A DNA stretch of 64,000 nucleotides from NCBI GenBank assembly GCA_023382935.1, contig JAHDXL010000005.1, positions 142,649-206,648 of the forward strand, read 5' to 3'. Below the pieces are notes generated by a model. That model saw only the letters and a program-made list of their open reading frames with translations, had not been told where the DNA came from and made no database searches. Below are positions 29,061 through 39,487 of this stretch, one piece after another (positions within the stretch are counted from its first letter, which is position 1; each line of letters opens with the position of its first letter). This DNA comes from Phycisphaerales bacterium (GTDB taxonomy: Bacteria > Planctomycetota > Phycisphaerae > Phycisphaerales > UBA1924). Both the position numbers and the translations under genes were made by a program.

Positions 29061-30113
29061 CTAGAAGACGTGAACACGATGCGGCGTGACGAAGACCTTC
29101 TCGCCGGTGCCGGCCGAGAGGCGTGCGAAGCGATCCTGCGGCAGTTCAGCGGTGATGAGTCCGCCGTCGGGCAGTTGGAGATCAAGGCGTGCGACCGCGC
29201 CGGCGGCGTTGACGCGCAGCACGGTGGCGGGGAAGCCGGGCTTGCCGTTCTTCTGCGGCAAGACCTCGAGTTCGTGCGGACGGACGAAGACACGCACGTC
29301 ACCGTGGCGAATGACGCCATCGGAGGCGGCGACGGAGATATCGGCGAACTCGACGTCGCGCCCGTGAGCGTGGCCTCGGAAAGTGTTGACCTGTCCGAGG
29401 AAGTTCATGACGAACTCGGTCTGGGGCGAGTGGTAGACGTCGGCGGGGGAGCCGATCTGCTCGATGCGGCCCTGGTTCATCAACACGACGCGGTCAGCGA
29501 CTTCGAGCGCCTCCTCCTGGTCGTGGGTGACAAAGACGCTGGTGATGTGCAGGTCGTCGTGAAGTTTGCGGATCCAGTGGCGCAGTTCGGTGCGGACCTT
29601 GGCGTCAAGGGCGCCGAACGGCTCGTCGAGGAGGAGCACGCGCGGCTCGACGGCCAGGGCGCGGGCGAGCGCGACGCGCTGGCGCTGTCCGCCGGAGAGT
29701 TGGCTCGGGTAGCGCCCGGCCATGCCTTCAAGTTGCACAAGCCCGAGCAGATCGTGCACACGTTCGCGGATGCGTTTGCGGCTGGGGCGCTTGGCGCGGG
29801 GCAGTACGCGCAGCCCGAAAGCGATGTTTTCGAAGACGGACATGTGCCGGAAGAGGGCGTAGTGCTGGAACACGAAGCCGACGCGGCGTTTTCGGACCGG
29901 CTGCCCGGCCACGTCTTCCTCGTAGTACCGGATGGAGCCGGCGCCCGGGTCGAGGTCTTCCAGACCGGCGATGAGGCGAAGGAGCGTGGTCTTTCCAGAA
30001 CCCGAGGGTCCGAGCAGGGCGACCAGTTCGCCGGTGGGAATGTCAAACGACACGTCGTCGAGCGCCTTGAAGGCGCCGAAACTCTTGCTGACGTTGCGAA
30101 CCTTGATACTCAT
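29061..30113 (-). CDS. cysA: Sulfate/thiosulfate ABC transporter ATP-binding protein CysA
   Basis: 350 residues. Walker [11 protein letters not shown]-loop FVFQHYALF, signature [15 protein letters not shown], Walker [13 protein letters not shown] and switch His in [10 protein letters not shown] are all intact. The C-terminal ~110 residues form the TOBE-like regulatory domain of CysA-type ATPases. The N-terminus [20 protein letters not shown] is characteristic of CysA. Powers sulfate/thiosulfate import with the two permeases upstream. The ATG overlaps the stop of cysW (ATGA), so they are translationally coupled. Last gene of the operon. Confidence 0.94.
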
Positions 30114-31006
30114 GACTTGTCCCCCAGTCGTGCAGACAGTTCCATCTGCCGGCGCACGCGATACTCGACGGCCGTCTTGAGCACGAGCGTGATGATCGCC
30201 AGAATGGCCAGCAGCGACGCGGTGGCAAAGGCCGCGGCGAACGAATATTCGTTGTAGAGGATCTCGACGTGCAGCGGGAGCGTGTTGGTCTGCCCGCGAA
30301 TGTGTCCGGAGACGACCGAGACGGCGCCGAACTCACCCATCGCTCGGGCGTTGCACAGGATGACGCCGTAGAGCAGCGCCCAGCGGATGTTGGGGAGGGT
30401 GACACGACGGAACATGGTCCAGCCGCGTGCGCCCAGGGTCATGGCGGCCTGCTCTTCTTCCAGGCCCTGCTCCTCCATGAGCGGAATCAGTTCGCGGGCG
30501 ACGAAGGGGAAGGTGATGAAGACCGTTGCCAGCACGATGCCGGGCGCGGCGAAGATGATCTTGATGTCGTGCTCGGCCAGCCAGGGGCCCAGCCAGCCCT
30601 GACGCCCGAACACGAGGACGTAGATCAGGCCCGCAACCACGGGAGAGACTGCAAAGGGTAGGTCGATGAGCGTGACCAGAAGCGAGCGTCCGCGGAACTT
30701 GAACTTGGTGATGGCCCAGGCGGCGCAGAGCCCAAAGACCACGTTGAGAGGCACGGACACGCCGGCGGCGATGAGAGTCAGACGGATGGCCGAGAGGGCG
30801 TCCGGATCTTGGAAACTCCCAAGATAGACGCCGATGCCCTCGCGCAGGGCTTCCGTGAAGACGACGACCAGCGGGAGCACGAGGAAGACGCCCAGGAAGG
30901 TCAGGGCGATGCCGGTGAGCACCCAGCGGGTGAGCGAGGTGTCCCGGGTGGCTGGAGTGCCGGGCCGGACTCCGACGGACAGTGACAATGCGACGGCACC
31001 GGGCAT
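30110..31006 (-). CDS. cysW: Sulfate ABC transporter permease CysW
   Basis: 298 residues with six membrane segments. Family features: [42 protein letters not shown], and the ATPase-coupling EAA-like loop around [51 protein letters not shown] is a hallmark of CysW. Inner-membrane half of the sulfate channel, partner of CysT. It starts 11 bases after the cysT stop and overlaps cysA by four. Confidence 0.93.
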
Positions 31007-31016
31007 GGCTTGATCC

Positions 31017-31853
31017 TCAGGCGCGGGTGCGCGCGGTGCTCCAGACCTGGATGCCGTTGATGACCAGCAGCATCACGAACGAGAACGCGAGCAGGGCCAG
31101 CGCGATAGAAGTGGCGCCGGCGACGTCGTACTGCTCGAGTTTGGTGACGATGAGCAGCGGGGTGATCTCGGTCTTCATGGGCATGTTGCCGCTGATAAAG
31201 ACGACCGAGCCGTATTCACCGACCGCGCGGGCGAATGCCATGGCGAACCCGGCGAGCAGCGCCGGCAGGACCGCCGGCACCACCACGCGGCGGACCGTCT
31301 GGAGCCGCCCTGCGCCCAGGCTGGCGGCCGCTTCTTCCACGTCGGACTCGAGGTCGGCCAGCGCGGGCTGAAGAGTCCGCACGACGAATGGCAGGCCGAT
31401 GAAGGTCAGCGCGATCACGATGCCGAAACGGCTAAACGCGCCGTTAATGCCGACGTGTGAGAGCGGGCCGCCTAGCCAGCCGTTGCGGGCGTAGAGGGCC
31501 GTGAGCGCAATGCCGGACACGGCCGTCGGCATCGCGAAGGGCAGATCGACGAGCGCGTCGACCATCTTGCGCCCCGGGAAGGGATAGCGCACCAGCACCC
31601 ACGCGACGATAAAGCCGAAGAACAGATTGATGGTGGCGGCCACGAGCGAGGCGCCGATGCTCAGACGGAACGAGGCCAGTACGCGGTCGTCGATGACGGT
31701 GGTCCAGAACTGGCTCCACGAAAGTTGGGCCGTCTTGAGCACGAGCCCCGCGAGCGGGATCAGCACGATCAGTCCGAGGTAGGTGATCGTGATGCCCATG
31801 GTCAACGGGAATCCCGGGATCTTGCCGGGCCTGCGTTTGAAGGGGCGTCGCAT
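31017..31853 (-). CDS. cysT: Sulfate ABC transporter permease CysT (CysU)
   Basis: 278 residues, six predicted membrane segments. LVDLPFAMPTAVSGIALTALY and the EEAAASLGAGRLQTVRRVV coupling loop identify a molybdate/sulfate-type permease; GEYGSVVFISGNMPMKTEI is the CysT-specific end. Forms the membrane channel with CysW. It is preceded by a 116-base gap carrying a strong hairpin between the binding-protein gene and this gene. Confidence 0.93.
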   Translation of the reverse strand: MRRPFKRRPGKIPGFPLTMGITITYLGLIVLIPLAGLVLKTAQLSWSQFWTTVIDDRVLASFRLSIGASLVAATINLFFGFIVAWVLVRYPFPGRKMVDALVDLPFAMPTAVSGIALTALYARNGWLGGPLSHVGINGAFSRFGIVIALTFIGLPFVVRTLQPALADLESDVEEAAASLGAGRLQTVRRVVVPAVLPALLAGFAMAFARAVGEYGSVVFISGNMPMKTEITPLLIVTKLEQYDVAGATSIALALLAFSFVMLLVINGIQVWSTARTRA

Positions 31854-31876
31854 GATGTTCTCCGTCCTCGTGAATC

Positions 31877-31904
31877 CCCCGGTCGCCTGGGAGAGCGGCC
31901 GGGG
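31877..31904 (-). other. Intercistronic hairpin between sulfate-binding protein and permease genes
   Basis: Bases 31877-31886 (CCCCGGTCGC) pair with 31895-31904 (GCGGCCGGGG) over ten positions with one G-U, loop of eight. No T run follows, so it is not a classical terminator. Such hairpins often stabilise the upstream binding-protein part of an ABC-operon transcript, giving more binding protein than permease. Confidence 0.5.
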
Positions 31905-31969
31905 AGTCGAACTGGGGTCCTTGTTGCCTTCCGTCCGCGCGGCCGGCCCGGCGCGAACGGAGCGGGTGT

Positions 31970-33025
31970 CTATGGCTTGTAGATCTGGTCAAAGACGCCG
32001 CCGTCGTCGAAGTGCTCCGTCTGCACTTTCTTCCATCCGCCGAACACTGTGTCGATGCTGAGCAGTTCGAGTTTGGGGAAGCGTTTGAGGTCCTCAGGAT
32101 CGACCAGAGACGGGTCGTAGGGGCGGTAGTAGTGCTTGGCGGCCAGGCGCTGTCCGATGGGCGAGTAGAGATATTCGAGATAGGCTTGGGCCAGATCGCG
32201 GTTGCCGTGCTTGTCGGAGAACTTGTCGATGAGCGTCACGGGGGGCTCGGCGAGAATGCTGATGGAGGGAACCACGATTTCGAACTTGTCCTTGCCGAGT
32301 TCTTCGACGGCCAGGAAGGCCTCGTTTTCCCATGCGAGCAGCACGTCGCCGATGTTGCGCTGGACGAAGGTGGTGGTTGAGCCGCGGGCTCCCGTGTCGA
32401 GCACGGGCACACGCCGGAAGACGTCGGTGACGAACTGGCGGGCCTTGGCCTGTGCGGCCTTTACCGCTTCGGCTGCGTTGGGGTCTTCCAGTTTGGCTAG
32501 GTCACCCAGTTCGCGTCGGAGGGCGAAGCCCCACGCGGCCAGGTAGTTCCATCGAGCGCCGCCGGAGGTCTTGGGATTGGGCGTGATGACCTCGACGCCG
32601 GGCTTGAGCAGGTCGTCCCAGTCGCGGATGTTCTTGGGGTTGCCCTTGCGAACGAGGAAGACGATGGTCGAGGTGTAGGGCGAACTGGCATTGGGCAGGC
32701 GGCTCTGCCATTCCTTGGGCAGCAGGCCGGCGTGCTCGCTGATCGCATCGATGTCGTAGGCGAGGGCCAGGGTGACGACATCGGCTTCGAGCCCGTCGAT
32801 GACGGCACGCGCCTGCTTGCCTGAGCCGCCGTGCGACATCTTGATCTCGACGGTCTGTCCGGTCTTCTCCTTCCACATCCTGGCGAACTCGGCGTTGAAG
32901 TCCTTGTAGAGTTCGCGCGTGGGGTCGTACGAGACGTTGAGCATGGTGCGTGTCTGTGCCAGCACGCTGGTGGCGCACATGACCAGTCCGATGATCGAAG
33001 CGAGGATCGGTCGCCGGGGTCTCAT
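31970..33025 (-). CDS. Sulfate ABC transporter substrate-binding protein
   Basis: 351 residues from the ATG at 33025, with AAGGAG upstream and a clear signal peptide ([16 protein letters not shown]). The mature protein has the Sbp/CysP motifs [47 protein letters not shown] and [16 protein letters not shown]. The C-terminus has [24 protein letters not shown]. Binds sulfate or thiosulfate in the periplasm and delivers it to CysT/W. The start codon overlaps the stop of the upstream cysteine dioxygenase-like gene (ATGA). Sbp versus CysP cannot be separated by eye. Confidence 0.94.
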
Positions 33026-33552
33026 TCCCTGGTCTCCTTGGTGTCGTGTGGTGCGAGGTCGTACGTGGCCATTCGCGGCGCTGGTCTGAACGCGTGGAGC
33101 GTGACCAGTAGTTCGCTCGAGAATGCCTCGTTGATGATCGAATGGATCAGCCCAGGTTCGCAGGCCAGCACCGAGCCGGTAAGGAATCGGTCGCAGGCGG
33201 CTTCCATGACGCGGCATTTCGCATCGCGTTCGTGGCGAGACTCGATGGCGATGCCGGCGAGGACGCGGAAGGCGCAGCGTGCCGGCCCGTGATCGTGGGG
33301 CATTGTTCTCTGCCCGGGCAGATACCCACGCAGTTCGATGACGCATTCGGGCGATTCAAGCAGTACGCGGCGGGTATGGGAGTTCGGCTGAGAGGTCGCG
33401 CAGCCGGCGAGCGGGAGAAGATGCGCGGGCAGGGTGGCCAGGAGATCTCGGAGGGATTCCAGACTGGTCCGAGCGGCAACGTCGCGGGCGAAGTCTTCAA
33501 GTCCGTGGGGAAGGGCTCGCAGCAAGGGATGCGTAGTAGGAATGGTCATCAT
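33022..33552 (-). CDS. Cysteine dioxygenase-like cupin protein
   Basis: 176 residues from tandem ATGs at 33552/33549, preceded by AGGGG. Cupin motif [20 protein letters not shown] gives His-x-His, with a third metal-ligand candidate in GLIHSIIN. Layout and length match type I cysteine dioxygenase family proteins, which oxidise cysteine (or a related thiol) to the sulfinate with non-haem iron. First gene of the sulfate-transport operon and translationally coupled to the binding protein, which places it in sulfur assimilation or taurine/sulfinate metabolism. The thiol substrate is not certain. Confidence 0.78.
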
Positions 33553-33564
33553 CCACACCCCTGG

Positions 33565-33580
33565 TACAACCAGCGTGCCA
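33565..33580 (-). promoter_or_regulatory. Sigma54-like (-24/-12) promoter of the dioxygenase/sulfate operon
   Basis: On the minus strand TGGCACG, four bases, TTGTA matches the sigma54 consensus except that the -12 C is T. By its spacing the transcript would start about at the ATG pair 33549-33552, so the message would be nearly leaderless. The divergent gene encodes a sigma54-type activator, which strengthens the call. The missing -12 C and the lack of a leader weaken it. Confidence 0.45.
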
Positions 33581-33639
33581 TCGGTGGCGCCCGGAGAAAA
33601 AGTCCAGTCCCGGCCCAAAAGGCCGCGCTGGTGGGGAAT

Positions 33640-33703: not shown

Positions 33704-35251
33704 ATGGAACGACTCAAGGAGATGCAACTGGCGTTGTGGCGAGAAGCCTGTCGGCACATCGACCTGTCGGACTCGATCTCCGATCTGCACGCAGTTATCA
33801 GGCCGTTTGTCCGCATCGAGGCGATGTGGATCTTCGCCCTGCACCAGTCGCGCTGTGTGCTCGTCGGCGTGGCCGGGTCGGCGCAGGGGGCATCCGGTCG
33901 CGTGATCTGCGATGGCGAGGGTGCGCAATCGCTCAGGAGGTTCACTGCTCGAGGCGGGCTGTGCCTGTTCAACCCCCGGCGCCCGGGTCGAAGCCTGCTT
34001 CGTCCTTTGGAATCGTGTCTGGGCGAGCAGTCGGTGGTGTGCGGGGCGCTGCAACGCGCCGGGGCGGAGGGGGTGGTGGCCTGGCGGCTTGCGGATGGCG
34101 TGGAGTTGGATGAGCGTACCTCAACTCTGCTGGCGGCGACGCTGGAGCCGCTGGCGGTGGCGCTGGACACCTCGAACCGGTTTCACGAATTGGAAGACCT
34201 GAGGCGGGCGGCAGAGGCCGAGCGTCAGGCGGCGTTGCGGCGACTGGGTCGTCAGTCGCTGCACGAACCGATCGTGGGAGCGCAGGCCGGGCTGGCGGGA
34301 GTGATGGAGAGGGTGCGCGTGGTGGCCCAGTCGGACCTTCCGGTGCTGATCCTGGGCGAGACTGGTTCGGGGAAGGAAGTGATTGCGCGGGCGATTCACG
34401 ATTCGTCGCGAAGGCACGAGGGCCCATTCGTGCGAGTCAACTGCGGGGCCATTCCGCCAGACCTGATCGACTCCCAGTTGTTCGGACACGAGCGGGGCTC
34501 GTTCACCGGCGCGGTCGAGCAGCGGCAGGGCTGGTTCGAGCGGGCACATGGGGGCACGCTGTTTCTCGACGAAGTCGGCGAACTGACTCTGGCAGCCCAG
34601 GTGCGGCTCCTGCGCGTTCTGCAGGATTCAACGCTGGAGCGGGTGGGCGGGCAGGAGTCCATCCGCGTGGATTGCCGCATCGTGGCCGCGACGCATCGCG
34701 ACCTTACGGAGATGGTGCGTCTGCGGACGTTTCGCGAAGACCTGTGGTATCGGCTGGCGGTCTTTCCGCTGCTGCTGCCGCCGCTGCGTGAGCGCCACGA
34801 GGATCTGCCTGAACTCGTGAGGCACTTTGCTCATCGCGCCAGTCTTCGTTTTGGATTGCCGGAGTTTGAAGTGACGGAATCCGACCTTGCGATGCTGCGG
34901 GCCTATCCGTGGCCCGGGAACATCCGCGAACTGGCGGCCGTCATCGATCGCGCGGCACTGCTGGGGCAGGATGGGCGGCTGGCGCTGCTCGCGGCGATGG
35001 GACTCAACGCGCCGCTCCACCCGGTTCCGTCGTCGACGCAACGGCCGCCGGCGGCGCAGGCACCGGGCTCGCTCAACGACGTCATCCGGGCGGCCATGGA
35101 GTCGGCGCTGCGGTGCTGCCACGGCAAGGTCGAGGGTCCCGGCGGCGCAGCCGAACTGTTGAAGGTGAATCCAAACACGCTTCGATCGAAGATGCGCAAG
35201 CACGGGGTCCGGGCGCAGTCATTCACCCGAGAAGGCGCGGTCAGGGACTGA
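33704..35251 (+). CDS. Sigma54-dependent transcriptional activator (GAF-AAA-Fis)
   Basis: 515 residues. Residues ~1-160 look like a GAF sensor domain. The AAA+ core follows: Walker A GETGSGKE at 218-225, the sigma54-contact loop GSFTGA at 265-270 (the common Ser variant of GAFTGA), Walker B TLFLDE at 285-290, then TFREDLWYRLAVFPL and YPWPGNIREL. A Fis-type helix-turn-helix closes the protein (AAELLKVNPNTLRSKMRKHG). No receiver domain, so it probably senses a small ligand through GAF, as NorR-type activators do. Divergent from the cysteine dioxygenase/sulfate operon and probably its regulator. Confidence 0.9.
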   Translation: MERLKEMQLALWREACRHIDLSDSISDLHAVIRPFVRIEAMWIFALHQSRCVLVGVAGSAQGASGRVICDGEGAQSLRRFTARGGLCLFNPRRPGRSLLRPLESCLGEQSVVCGALQRAGAEGVVAWRLADGVELDERTSTLLAATLEPLAVALDTSNRFHELEDLRRAAEAERQAALRRLGRQSLHEPIVGAQAGLAGVMERVRVVAQSDLPVLILGETGSGKEVIARAIHDSSRRHEGPFVRVNCGAIPPDLIDSQLFGHERGSFTGAVEQRQGWFERAHGGTLFLDEVGELTLAAQVRLLRVLQDSTLERVGGQESIRVDCRIVAATHRDLTEMVRLRTFREDLWYRLAVFPLLLPPLRERHEDLPELVRHFAHRASLRFGLPEFEVTESDLAMLRAYPWPGNIRELAAVIDRAALLGQDGRLALLAAMGLNAPLHPVPSSTQRPPAAQAPGSLNDVIRAAMESALRCCHGKVEGPGGAAELLKVNPNTLRSKMRKHGVRAQSFTREGAVRD

Positions 35252-35278: not shown

Positions 35279-35659
35279 TCATCGGTGAACCGGCGTCAGG
35301 TGTGCTTGGAGCAGCGAGAGCAGAGTTGCCGAATCGATGGGCTTCTGGAGCACACCGGCCACGCCGATGGCTTCCGCATCGATGTGTCGGTTCATCATTT
35401 CCCCGACGCTGCTGAGCAGGTAGACCGGCGTCTGGATTCCACTGGCGTGCAGATCACGGATGAAGGACAGCCCCGAGTCGACTTCTTCCATCATCAGGTC
35501 GACGATGATCAGGTCCGGGTGTGAGCGTGAGCAGGCGATCAGGCCATCCTCGCCGGAGGCTGCCCCGATCATCTCGTAGCCGTGGGCTTCCAGGATCTCA
35601 CGGACGGCGGCGCGCCACTCGGCTTCGTCATCGATGAAGAGAACGCGGTTGGCAGTCAT
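35279..35659 (-). CDS. Stand-alone response regulator receiver protein
   Basis: 126 residues, only a receiver domain. Acidic pair D10-D11 (FIDDEAEW), phospho-acceptor D54 (IIVDLMM), Ser in the YLLSS switch region and conserved K106 (LQKPIDS) are all present, so phosphorylation should work. No output domain. Its ATG overlaps the stop of the HoxU-like gene (ATGA), making it a translationally coupled member of the diaphorase operon. No histidine kinase is adjacent; the nearest is at 41282-42904. Confidence 0.88.
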   Translation of the reverse strand: MTANRVLFIDDEAEWRAAVREILEAHGYEMIGAASGEDGLIACSRSHPDLIIVDLMMEEVDSGLSFIRDLHASGIQTPVYLLSSVGEMMNRHIDAEAIGVAGVLQKPIDSATLLSLLQAHLTPVHR

Positions 35660-36276
35660 GGTTTACCTCTTGTGCTCTGGTCCAATCGGAGTGCGCCGGT
35701 TGGGCACGCGGCGACGATCGCGCCAAGACAGGCGTTGTCGATCTGGACCTGATCGTCCATCCAGAGACGCCTGCCCTCCCCGCGCCCGATAACCCGGACG
35801 AACCCAGCGGCGCCGGCCGCATCGGCGGCACGCTCGCATCGGCCGCACATGATGCAGCGGGCGTGATCGATCACGATCTGTCCAGGCCCGCGCTCGATGG
35901 GAAGGCAGGCTTGGGCGCGGGCAAATGCGCTCTCTTGCACGCCCATTCGCGCCGCCTCAGCGTCGAGTTCGGTTGTGCCATGGTCTTTCCCGCACTGTGC
36001 GAGGAGAATCTCCAAGAGCGTGCGGCGCAGCGTACGCAGTTCGGGCGTGTCGAACTCGACGCGCATGCCCTCGGCCAGCGGTTCGATGCAGGTGGCACGC
36101 GGGCGTCCGTTGATCAAGCCGGTGCACAGCCGGCAGCGACCGCCGCCGGTCTTGAAGCAACCGCGGCAGAGGTGGGGGATGGAGAGGCCGGCGGACTCGG
36201 CCCCTTCAAGCACGGTCATGCCGCGCGAGCCGGAGAGACGGCGGTCATCCAGCGTCCAGGACAGCGCACCTGACAT
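35656..36276 (-). CDS. HoxU/NuoG-like iron-sulfur protein with reduced cluster set
   Basis: 206 residues. The N-terminal [2Fe-2S] domain is intact: Cys37, Cys48, Cys51, Cys63 (HLCRGC, GRCRLC, ATCIEPL). The His-Cys cluster that normally follows is missing: only Cys95 and His99 remain in LLAQCGKDHG. The ferredoxin part keeps Cys141/144/147 (ARCIMCGRC) and Cys191 before Pro (AACPTGAL), enough for one [4Fe-4S], but the second cluster is gone (only Cys183 remains). HoxU-type proteins carry electrons between the FMN subunit and hydrogenase or formate dehydrogenase. It starts four bases after the HoxF-like gene stop. Confidence 0.75.
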   Translation of the reverse strand: MSGALSWTLDDRRLSGSRGMTVLEGAESAGLSIPHLCRGCFKTGGGRCRLCTGLINGRPRATCIEPLAEGMRVEFDTPELRTLRRTLLEILLAQCGKDHGTTELDAEAARMGVQESAFARAQACLPIERGPGQIVIDHARCIMCGRCERAADAAGAAGFVRVIGRGEGRRLWMDDQVQIDNACLGAIVAACPTGALRLDQSTRGKP

Positions 36277-36279
36277 GGC

Positions 36280-38157
36280 TCAGTCTCCTGCCGCATGGGC
36301 GGGCTTGTCGGCCCCCCTGGGCTTGGCCTCGATGTGTGACCGGGCAACGGCCCGCTGTCCGCGGGCACGCGACTCGAACAGCGAGCGATGATCTTCCAAT
36401 GCCTGGGAGAGGAACTTGCCGGCCGCCTTGCCGAGCACGCACAGACTGCCGGTGCGCAATGCTTCTGCCAGGCGATGCAACTGATCGAGTTCGGCCCGAC
36501 ATGCGGTTCCTTCTGCGAAGCGGTCAAGCATCTCGCGGACCAACGGCAGCCCGCCGCGGCAGGGAACGCAGGCCCCGCATTGCTCAGCATGAAGTGCTTG
36601 CGCATACGAGGCGATGATGGCCAGCGGGTCGCGGGCGCGGGCGAAGCACTGTATCGAGCCCGTGGTCGCCACGTGCTCGTAGCCGATGCGATGCGCGAAC
36701 TCGGCCTCGGTGGTCAGGCGCGGCGACTGCCCGCTCAGGAGCACGAATCCGGTGTTTTCGGCTCCGGCCAGTTCGAGCACGGAGCGGATGCTGATGCCAA
36801 ACGGAACTTCGTAGACGCCGGGGCGCCGGCAGTCGCCCGAAACGCAGAGCAGTTTGGTGCCGGCGCTCTGGGACGTGCCACACTCGCAGAACGATCCGGA
36901 TCCCTCGTCGAGAATCTTGCTTACGCAGCAGAGGGTCTCGGCGCAGTTGGTGGCGGTGGGGTGCCCGAGGTACCCGCACGAGGTGGGATATGGCGGGCGC
37001 GGATGGACAGCGCCGGCTCGCCCTTCGCACGCAGCGATGATGCTGGTCTCTTCGCCGAGAACGTGCGGATGCGCGCCGAGGCGCACTTGGATTTCAAAGT
37101 CAAAACCGCGCTTGCCGCAGATGTCTTGCCCCAGCAGTCCGTCTTCGGCGCGCTTGGCCAGCAGAGCCTCGAGGAAGGTGACGAGATAGGCGTACTCTTC
37201 ACGGATGTACAACAGCCCGAGCCGGGCGCCCACGGCGTAGCCGGCGATGGTCATGCCGGCGAACACGCGCTCGGCGCACTCAGTCAGCATGACGCGATCA
37301 CGGAACGAGCCCGGCTCGGGGTCGCAGGCGATGCACACCACGTATCGTTCATCCACTTCCATGATGCGGTCAAACTCGCGCGAGTAGTCGCGCCCGATGG
37401 CGGCCTCCTGCCCCCAGAGCGACTCGACGCGCTCCGCACACGCGGCCCGCACGAATCCCCACTTCACGCCTGTCGGCAGGCTGTCAATGCCGCGGCCGCG
37501 CAGGCGCGCGGTCTTGACCGCGCGCATCACCTCGGCGGGAGTCATGCGCACGGCCTTACGCAGGGCTTCGCCACGCGCCATCGGGCGGAATATCACCGGT
37601 CCCACCTGGCGGACATGGTTGTGCACGGCGCTGTGCACGAGCGGATGAGCGTTGTTGCCGTCGCCCAGGGACGTGATGAGTCCTGAAGCGGGTCGGCCCT
37701 CGCGCAGGTGCGTCCCGATGACGTGTGCTTCCCGTTCGCCGACTTCAGGGATCACCACGTCGTCCACAAGGACGACCGGTCCCTGATCTGCCAGGCCCAT
37801 GTCGCCGGAGGGTTGAACGCGGAAGTGCGCGTCGTCGTCGGACCCGGGCGCGCTTTCGAGGTGTTCACGCAGAATTGTGATGACTGCCCGTGAGCCGCGC
37901 AGACGCGAAACCGCATCGTCACTGACCTGTACCAGGGTGCATCCTCGCGGATGATCGTGAAAGCGGTCGAAGAAGTGGACGGCTTCGATCACGTCTGCCG
38001 TGGACAGTCCGAGCCGGTCGGCAATGCCGGCCGCATGCGGCGCCGAGACTTGACCCTCGCGCCGGGCCACGTCGTGCAGGATGTCGAGCAGTCGGTGTCG
38101 ATCGTCGCTGTGAGCGCGACATTCGCGAACGATCAGGTCGTCAAGTCGGCTGGTCAT
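36280..38157 (-). CDS. HoxF-like NADH-binding diaphorase subunit (NuoE-NuoF fusion)
   Basis: 625 residues from the ATG at 38157, with AAGGGGG upstream. Residues 1-135 resemble NuoE, but its [2Fe-2S] cysteines are absent (GCTLVQVSDDA, RVQPSGDMGLADQGPVVLVDD). Residues ~215-450 are the FMN/NADH domain with altered motifs: LRGRGIDSLPTGVKW and ACDPEPGSFRDR for the flavin/nucleotide site, GEETSIIAACEGRAG downstream. A SLBB region (GVYEVPFGISIRSV) follows. The C-terminal [4Fe-4S] ligands are complete: Cys527, 530, 533 (EQCGACVPCR) and Cys573. Predicted to oxidise NADH and pass electrons to the HoxU-like protein. No hydrogenase or dehydrogenase partner is in the window. Confidence 0.82.
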   Translation of the reverse strand: MTSRLDDLIVRECRAHSDDRHRLLDILHDVARREGQVSAPHAAGIADRLGLSTADVIEAVHFFDRFHDHPRGCTLVQVSDDAVSRLRGSRAVITILREHLESAPGSDDDAHFRVQPSGDMGLADQGPVVLVDDVVIPEVGEREAHVIGTHLREGRPASGLITSLGDGNNAHPLVHSAVHNHVRQVGPVIFRPMARGEALRKAVRMTPAEVMRAVKTARLRGRGIDSLPTGVKWGFVRAACAERVESLWGQEAAIGRDYSREFDRIMEVDERYVVCIACDPEPGSFRDRVMLTECAERVFAGMTIAGYAVGARLGLLYIREEYAYLVTFLEALLAKRAEDGLLGQDICGKRGFDFEIQVRLGAHPHVLGEETSIIAACEGRAGAVHPRPPYPTSCGYLGHPTATNCAETLCCVSKILDEGSGSFCECGTSQSAGTKLLCVSGDCRRPGVYEVPFGISIRSVLELAGAENTGFVLLSGQSPRLTTEAEFAHRIGYEHVATTGSIQCFARARDPLAIIASYAQALHAEQCGACVPCRGGLPLVREMLDRFAEGTACRAELDQLHRLAEALRTGSLCVLGKAAGKFLSQALEDHRSLFESRARGQRAVARSHIEAKPRGADKPAHAAGD

Positions 38158-38236: not shown

Positions 38237-38257
38237 GCGAACCGTTTGGCGGTTCGC
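38237..38257. promoter_or_regulatory. Inverted repeat between the FixJ-type regulator and the diaphorase genes
   Basis: GCGAACCG (38237-38244), TTTGG, CGGTTCGC (38250-38257): perfect 8-base arms. It lies 80 bases ahead of the HoxF-like start codon, in the 210-base gap after the FixJ-type regulator gene. No T run on either side, so an operator is more likely than a terminator. Confidence 0.45.
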
Positions 38258-38367: not shown

Positions 38368-39057
38368 CTACGCATTGTCTTGAGTGATTATCGGTAACTG
38401 CGTAGAGGGCTCGGTGCCATATACGAGACGATACAGATCAGGCAGGCAGGTCGCCCCCATTTTGTGGATGATGTGAGATCGGTGCACGTCGACCGTGCGA
38501 GCGCTGATGGACAGGATGTCGGCGATACCCTTCGAGGACTTGCCCTGCAAGACCAGTTCGAGCACCTCGCGCTCTCGCGCGGAGAGCGTGGCCAGTCGGC
38601 GGGCGCCTTCCCTGGCCTTGGAACGCCTCTGGCGGCGCTCGGTGTCCAGGGCAATGGCCGTGCGCACCACGCGCAGCAGGTCGTGTTCGCAGACTGGCTT
38701 GGACATGAAGTCAACGGCACCCGCGCGCATCGCCTGTACCGCGGCCGGCACCTCCGCATAGGCAGTCACGAAGATGATCGGCAGGTCGTCGCCCCGCGAG
38801 GCCAGTTCAGCCTGCAACTCCAGGCCGTCCATGCCGGGCATGCGCAGATCGAGCACGAGACAGCCGGGCTGCGCGGGCACGCGCGCCGCGAGGAAGTCGC
38901 GCGCATTGCTGAACGTCGCGGTGTCAAGATCGATTGACTCGACCATCGCTCGCAGCCGGTCGCGATCATCGGCCCGATCGTCGACGATGTACACCGTCGG
39001 ACCTGAGTCCGAGCCCGATCCGCACGTCCGCCGGCGAAAGACCGCCGTGGCCCGCAT
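38368..39057 (-). CDS. FixJ-family two-component response regulator
   Basis: 229 residues from the ATG at 39057; a TTG at 39075 is an alternative. Receiver domain (residues 21-135) with Asp pair in YIVDDRAD, phospho-acceptor D70 (LVLDLRMPGMDGLEL) and K120 (FMSKP), followed by a LuxR-type helix-turn-helix (LSAREREVLELVLQGKSSKGIADILSIS up to VDVHRSHIIHKMG). DNA-binding transcription factor activated by phosphorylation. It is upstream of and co-directional with the diaphorase pair, so it likely controls it. The cognate kinase is not adjacent. Confidence 0.9.
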   Translation of the reverse strand: MRATAVFRRRTCGSGSDSGPTVYIVDDRADDRDRLRAMVESIDLDTATFSNARDFLAARVPAQPGCLVLDLRMPGMDGLELQAELASRGDDLPIIFVTAYAEVPAAVQAMRAGAVDFMSKPVCEHDLLRVVRTAIALDTERRQRRSKAREGARRLATLSAREREVLELVLQGKSSKGIADILSISARTVDVHRSHIIHKMGATCLPDLYRLVYGTEPSTQLPIITQDNA

Positions 39058-39301: not shown

Positions 39302-39487
39302 TCACCTGCCCGGCCATCCGGGCAGCACGAAGCGCCCGTCGCGCTGGATCACGATGCCGTCGGCCTCGATGACGCCGCGCGATCTGCTCGCGCGGGGGGG
39401 CAGATCGCACATCAGATCGCCCGCACGCACGCCGATGCAGTGGGTGACAGGCATGCGGGCCAGTTGCTCAAGGCATCGTTCGCTCAT
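39302..39487 (-). CDS. Small hypothetical protein
   Basis: 61 residues: MSERCLEQLARMPVTHCIGV at the N-terminus, then DLPPRASRSRGVIEADGIVI and a C-terminal RFVLPGWPGR. AAGGGG lies seven bases before the ATG and the composition is not that of a random frame. It has no recognised domain, signal or membrane segment. Divergent from the O-methyltransferase gene. It may be a real small protein or a chance frame. Confidence 0.4.
   Translation of the reverse strand: MSERCLEQLARMPVTHCIGVRAGDLMCDLPPRASRSRGVIEADGIVIQRDGRFVLPGWPGR

Follow-up and report, generated by a model that had tools for sequence, protein, structure and literature searches.

The locus lies within a stretch of 64,000 nucleotides of a Phycisphaerales contig (the window), in which genes for a HoxF-like protein (F'), a HoxU-like protein (U') and a stand-alone receiver (Rec') follow each other on the minus strand. 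The following features were assigned:

36280-38157, minus strand: F', HoxF paralogue with NuoE-like and NuoF-like parts, 625 aa
35656-36276, minus strand: U', HoxU paralogue, 206 aa
35279-35659, minus strand: Rec', stand-alone receiver, 126 aa
38368-39057, minus strand: FixJ-type response regulator (ATG at 39057), upstream of F'
38237-38257: perfect 8-bp inverted repeat GCGAACCG-5-CGGTTCGC, between fixJ and F'
33704-35251, plus strand: sigma-54 activator, convergent on Rec'; boundary of the locus and outside the module

F', U' and Rec' are each an open reading frame with strong coding GC3 bias. The gap between F' and U' is 3 bases, while U' and Rec' overlap by 4 bases (ATGA). Pfam domains were detected in F' (2Fe-2S_thioredx, Complex1_51K and NADH_4Fe-4S), U' (Fer2_4 and Fer4_Nqo3) and Rec' (Response_reg). 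NCBIfam scores stayed far under the equivalog cut-offs (F' NuoF 257 versus 559 bits; U' HoxU 100 versus 333), which may be taken as a first sign of unusual divergence. An earlier note on this DNA had described the order of the three genes with the ATGA overlap, the FixJ-type regulator upstream on the same strand and the lack of a HoxHY hydrogenase or formate dehydrogenase. All of this was confirmed: the overlap is that of U' and Rec', none of the window genes was identified as a hydrogenase or formate dehydrogenase gene, and HoxY, HoxH, W and Hyp are absent from the locus.

The FixJ-type gene is a possible operon member, a link that is based on one genome. It had no match in two congeners at E<=1e-25, which is compatible with membership, again judged from a single genome. 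The inverted repeat at 38237-38257 is a possible operator or terminator stem, and a scan for sigma-54 promoters upstream of F' and fixJ returned nothing at <=3 mismatches. Further upstream, window positions 39308-39418 hold a C-terminal remnant of an aminopeptidase gene that is intact in the sister species, where it adjoins a CNNM-type transporter gene; the remnant reflects a local deletion in the window genome. On the other side of the locus, sulfate-type ABC transporter genes adjoin a cupin gene resembling cysteine dioxygenase (window 29061-33346 and about 33022-33600, minus strand).

When the genome was searched with F', another HoxF with better conservation was identified on contig C4 (47% identity over the C-terminal part). 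It is part of a complete operon with the order hypF, hypC, hypD, hypE, hoxF, hoxU, hoxY, hoxH, hoxW, receiver, convergent histidine kinase, hypA and hypB. No NiFe large subunit other than that of this operon was found in the draft genome (3.7 Mb). F'-U'-Rec' corresponds to the F, U and receiver genes of this hox operon in the same order, minus Y, H and W, and within the genome Rec' is most closely related to the receiver of the C4 operon (49%, E 1e-33; next 31%, 4.5e-12). F', U' and Rec' are thus almost certainly paralogues of the genome's own hox operon genes. The three genes are a worn-down partial second copy of the genome's hydrogenase operon in which the receiver is intact, and the module can no longer be called an orphan, as the earlier note had done. 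A hydrogenase gene set elsewhere in the genome, named in that note as evidence against its interpretation, does belong to the pair, but it has its own F, U and receiver. One molybdopterin-family match was obtained in the genome with regard to a formate dehydrogenase partner. In trees of the receiver and of F the window copy was placed on long branches (F' 3.75 versus a median of 0.31), and an origin of Rec' from the family's own hox receiver was neither rejected nor established (AU p 0.36).

F' was compared with the canonical HoxF proteins encoded in 14 operons of the order and, in a wider alignment, with 35 relatives. The FMN glycine loop, GRGGAGFP and near-invariant in the 35 relatives, reads GRGIDSLP in F', and the second motif of the flavin/NADH pocket reads CIACDPEPG in place of CNADEGEPG. 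Immediately ahead of this second motif F' carries an insert of about 26 residues, which follows GRGIDSLPTGVKW. Altogether 112 of 169 near-invariant HoxF positions are kept in F' (66%; canonical controls 95-100%), the losses including G224, A225, G226 and F227 as well as N276, D278, E279 and G280. In the structure of Aquifex NuoEF, E95 and E97 of the corresponding second motif contact NADH via water (PMC6560083). Since the residues of the flavin/NADH motifs are lost, F' would most probably be unable to bind FMN or to oxidise NADH, and the description of the locus as an NADH-oxidising electron module is not supported. All seven linker positions and the ligands of the C-terminal 4Fe-4S cluster (C527, C530, C533 and C573; CGACVPC...C) are retained. 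F' also lacks the cysteine of the N-terminal, NuoE-like part; the matching 2Fe-2S cluster is absent from Cupriavidus HoxF as well (PMC3189943), and this loss was therefore left out of the evidence. AlphaFold2 predictions of F' based on 15 rows gave pLDDT values of 25-40 across most of the flavin domain, where a canonical HoxF control with the same 15 rows failed too.

In U' the ligands of the 2Fe-2S cluster (C37, C48, C51 and C63) and of the distal 4Fe-4S cluster (C141, C144, C147 and C191) are retained, while a seven-residue deletion spans the His/Cys-ligated 4Fe-4S motif (GNHFCxxC...C), which is lost. The conserved C-terminal tail of HoxU is also missing. Rec' retains 24 of the 26 near-invariant residues of the receiver family that follows hoxW, a grouping made in this analysis and not a published family. 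Asp54 as phosphoacceptor, Ser83 and Lys106 are present, as are the two acidic residues 10 and 11. Rec' was assigned to the family by its family-invariant residues, among which are the DLMMEE phosphoacceptor motif and QKP, and by the hox receiver being its best paralogue.

Of the module, only a remnant of F' was found in the congener G002, where it occupies the corresponding position next to the orthologous sigma-54 gene. This gene is retained in the sister species although the module has decayed; U' and Rec' are absent. The remnant is a pseudogene that lacks both ends, has an internal deletion and is interrupted by frame breaks. It already reads IACDPGPG, and the flavin motif was therefore already altered in the common ancestor. 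Between the two copies a dN/dS of 0.166 was obtained (bootstrap 0.10-0.26) over 167 alignable codons, which come exclusively from F', with 27, 16 and 68 differences at first, second and third codon positions. This value is close to that of the adjoining sigma-54 gene (0.116), and 300 neutral simulations ranged from 0.54 to 2.4. For much of that time F' was therefore a protein under constraint while its flavin motif was non-canonical. The codon pattern shows past purifying selection to have preserved F' after the predicted loss of its flavin site, so that selection still preserved a diaphorase whose flavin motif is destroyed. The module is dispensable and was lost in the sister species. An intact F'-U'-Rec' module was found in one genome only: no close relatives of F' were found in 84,980 species scanned with window-specific peptides, and searches of 163 genomes from the family and 400 from the order yielded no other degenerate copy.

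The linkage between diaphorase and receiver noticed in the window is genuine and extends far beyond it. In sets that overlap and are non-independent, a receiver of the Rec' family was found directly after hoxW in 14 of 14 hoxFUYHW operons examined in the order, a receiver followed hoxFUYHW in 18 of 18 untruncated operons of the class and in 8 of 9 operons at phylum level (the exception being G609), and, as seen from the receiver side, a hox gene ended at most 700 bases upstream on the same strand in 73 of the best 80 relatives kept from 84,980 species, comprising at least ten named phyla. A plasmid of the alphaproteobacterium Lichenicola cladoniae carries a receiver of greater distance (37%) in the position following hoxW. 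In most operons of the order a histidine kinase gene (L036:15288-16685 in the C4 operon) is convergent on the hox receiver and is a candidate for its kinase. Among 12 members of the class that were examined (Phycisphaerae, L211-L222), 10 have a receiver of another subfamily directly upstream of the [FeFe] hydrogenase operon nuoE-nuoF-hydA, and the same arrangement occurs at L041:7779-8150 and L180:3011-3370. The receivers upstream of nuoE-nuoF-hydA in Phycisphaerae are of the DVMMxxxDDG type. The two kinds of operon have diaphorase parts in common and differ in the hydrogenase. The lone receiver is thus apparently a regular companion of NADH-linked hydrogenases, and apparently an undescribed one: the arrangement was not described in literature on hox genes or hydrogenases combined with response regulators or receivers, which is weak evidence from open-licence papers only.

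F'U' shares the order of domains and the gene order F-U with HoxFU of NAD-reducing [NiFe] hydrogenases (group 3d type; Cupriavidus necator SH, PDB 5xf9), and the ligands of the F 4Fe-4S, the U 2Fe-2S and the distal 4Fe-4S clusters are kept as in HoxFU. It differs from HoxFU in the loss of the FMN/NADH-pocket motifs, of one HoxU 4Fe-4S motif and of the C-terminal tail, and in having no HoxYH, W or Hyp beside it. The window copy can be regarded as a natural deletion test: it has lost the genes for the hydrogenase and its maturation and has kept the receiver together with F and U. The gene directly after hoxW in Cupriavidus necator is hoxI, and HoxI of the SH binds the diaphorase module (HoxFU), of which it is the NADPH-activation site (PMC3702609). 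Like the receiver it is encoded by a small regulatory gene after hoxW; however, HoxI is a cyclic-nucleotide-binding-type domain and no receiver, whereas Rec' has phosphoacceptor residues and binding of the receiver to HoxFU is putative. Because the two kinds of operon share the diaphorase, because the receiver occupies the slot of HoxI and because it was retained with F'U', the receiver may be the regulatory partner of the diaphorase half, although co-retention with F'U' could also reflect operon position alone.

Regulatory hydrogenases (HupUV/HoxBC with HoxJ) and sensory [FeFe] hydrogenases (HydS) are paralogues of metabolic hydrogenases tied to two-component parts. F'U'Rec' resembles these systems in that a paralogue of a hydrogenase complex is found with two-component parts, but HupUV/HoxBC and HydS keep a hydrogenase subunit for sensing, while the window locus holds diaphorase parts only.

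Taken together, we favour with a probability of roughly 0.45 that the window operon is a hydrogenase-less, non-catalytic regulatory paralogue of the genome's own hoxFUYHW-receiver operon. That F'U'Rec' has retained a regulatory role is plausible, though short of probable. The main rival is plain decay, according to which a once-useful partial hox duplicate is now drifting and has no present function. Such a vestigial operon agrees with the truncated, frameshifted F' and the missing U' and Rec' of the sister species, with the unstable neighbourhood indicated by the aminopeptidase remnant and with the very long branch of F'. On the other hand, three open frames with coding bias have persisted despite an identity of only about 42% between F' and HoxF, the dN/dS of F' is 0.17 and Rec' holds nearly all invariant residues of its family; decay of this kind is a serious alternative that we consider rather unlikely.

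The remaining alternatives assign a redox function to F'U'. Its Fe-S clusters could pass electrons between other proteins without flavin, gated by Rec', and the retained ligands of three clusters (2Fe-2S and 4Fe-4S in U', 4Fe-4S in F') next to a lost flavin site would suit such a carrier. Deletion of the intermediate His/Cys 4Fe-4S motif of U' would, however, break the chain, and no redox partner gene adjoins the locus, making this role improbable. The earlier note had suggested either a sensor, with NADH oxidation by F'U' and with Rec' passing the NADH/NAD ratio on to gene expression, or a soluble diaphorase that serves a distant enzyme. Neither suggestion is upheld, since both need a working flavin site and the flavin/NADH motifs of F' are lost. 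Although a receiver accompanies diaphorase genes across phyla, as expected for the sensor, the chance that F'U'Rec' reads NADH is very slim with the FMN/NADH-pocket motifs destroyed even before F' and the sister copy diverged. A diaphorase working for a formate dehydrogenase or for the C4 hydrogenase has the overall homology to HoxFU in its favour, but U' lacks the conserved HoxU tail and the C4 hydrogenase is already supplied with intact F and U of its own, so that this role is hardly credible.

For the non-catalytic regulatory paralogue the following mechanism is proposed. By comparison with HoxI, the physical partner of the receiver would be the diaphorase (HoxFU or NuoEF). F'U' might then, with less certainty, serve without turnover as a scaffold with Fe-S clusters on which the receiver docks, and the module would tune a hydrogenase-linked phosphorelay instead of moving electrons from NADH. 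Tuning could occur by competition for the kinase or the receiver; alternatively, Rec' could be presented to a regulator, for instance the FixJ-type protein encoded next to the module. More tentatively, and with odds clearly against it, the receiver may be a phosphorylation-switched subunit of the diaphorase half in both [NiFe] hoxFUYHW and [FeFe] nuoEF-hydA systems of many phyla, and the window operon a derived form that keeps only the pairing of receiver and diaphorase after loss of NADH oxidation and of the hydrogenase. Should the receiver indeed act on the diaphorase, two-component systems would control the NADH-linked hydrogenases of many phyla directly, at the level of the protein, a form of control that is undescribed in the open-licence papers searched, which is weak evidence.

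Receivers of the hox family were also observed without adjoining hox genes (L101, L118, L119, L136, L138, L146 and L152), and those of L118 and L119 are located near [FeFe] hydrogenase genes.
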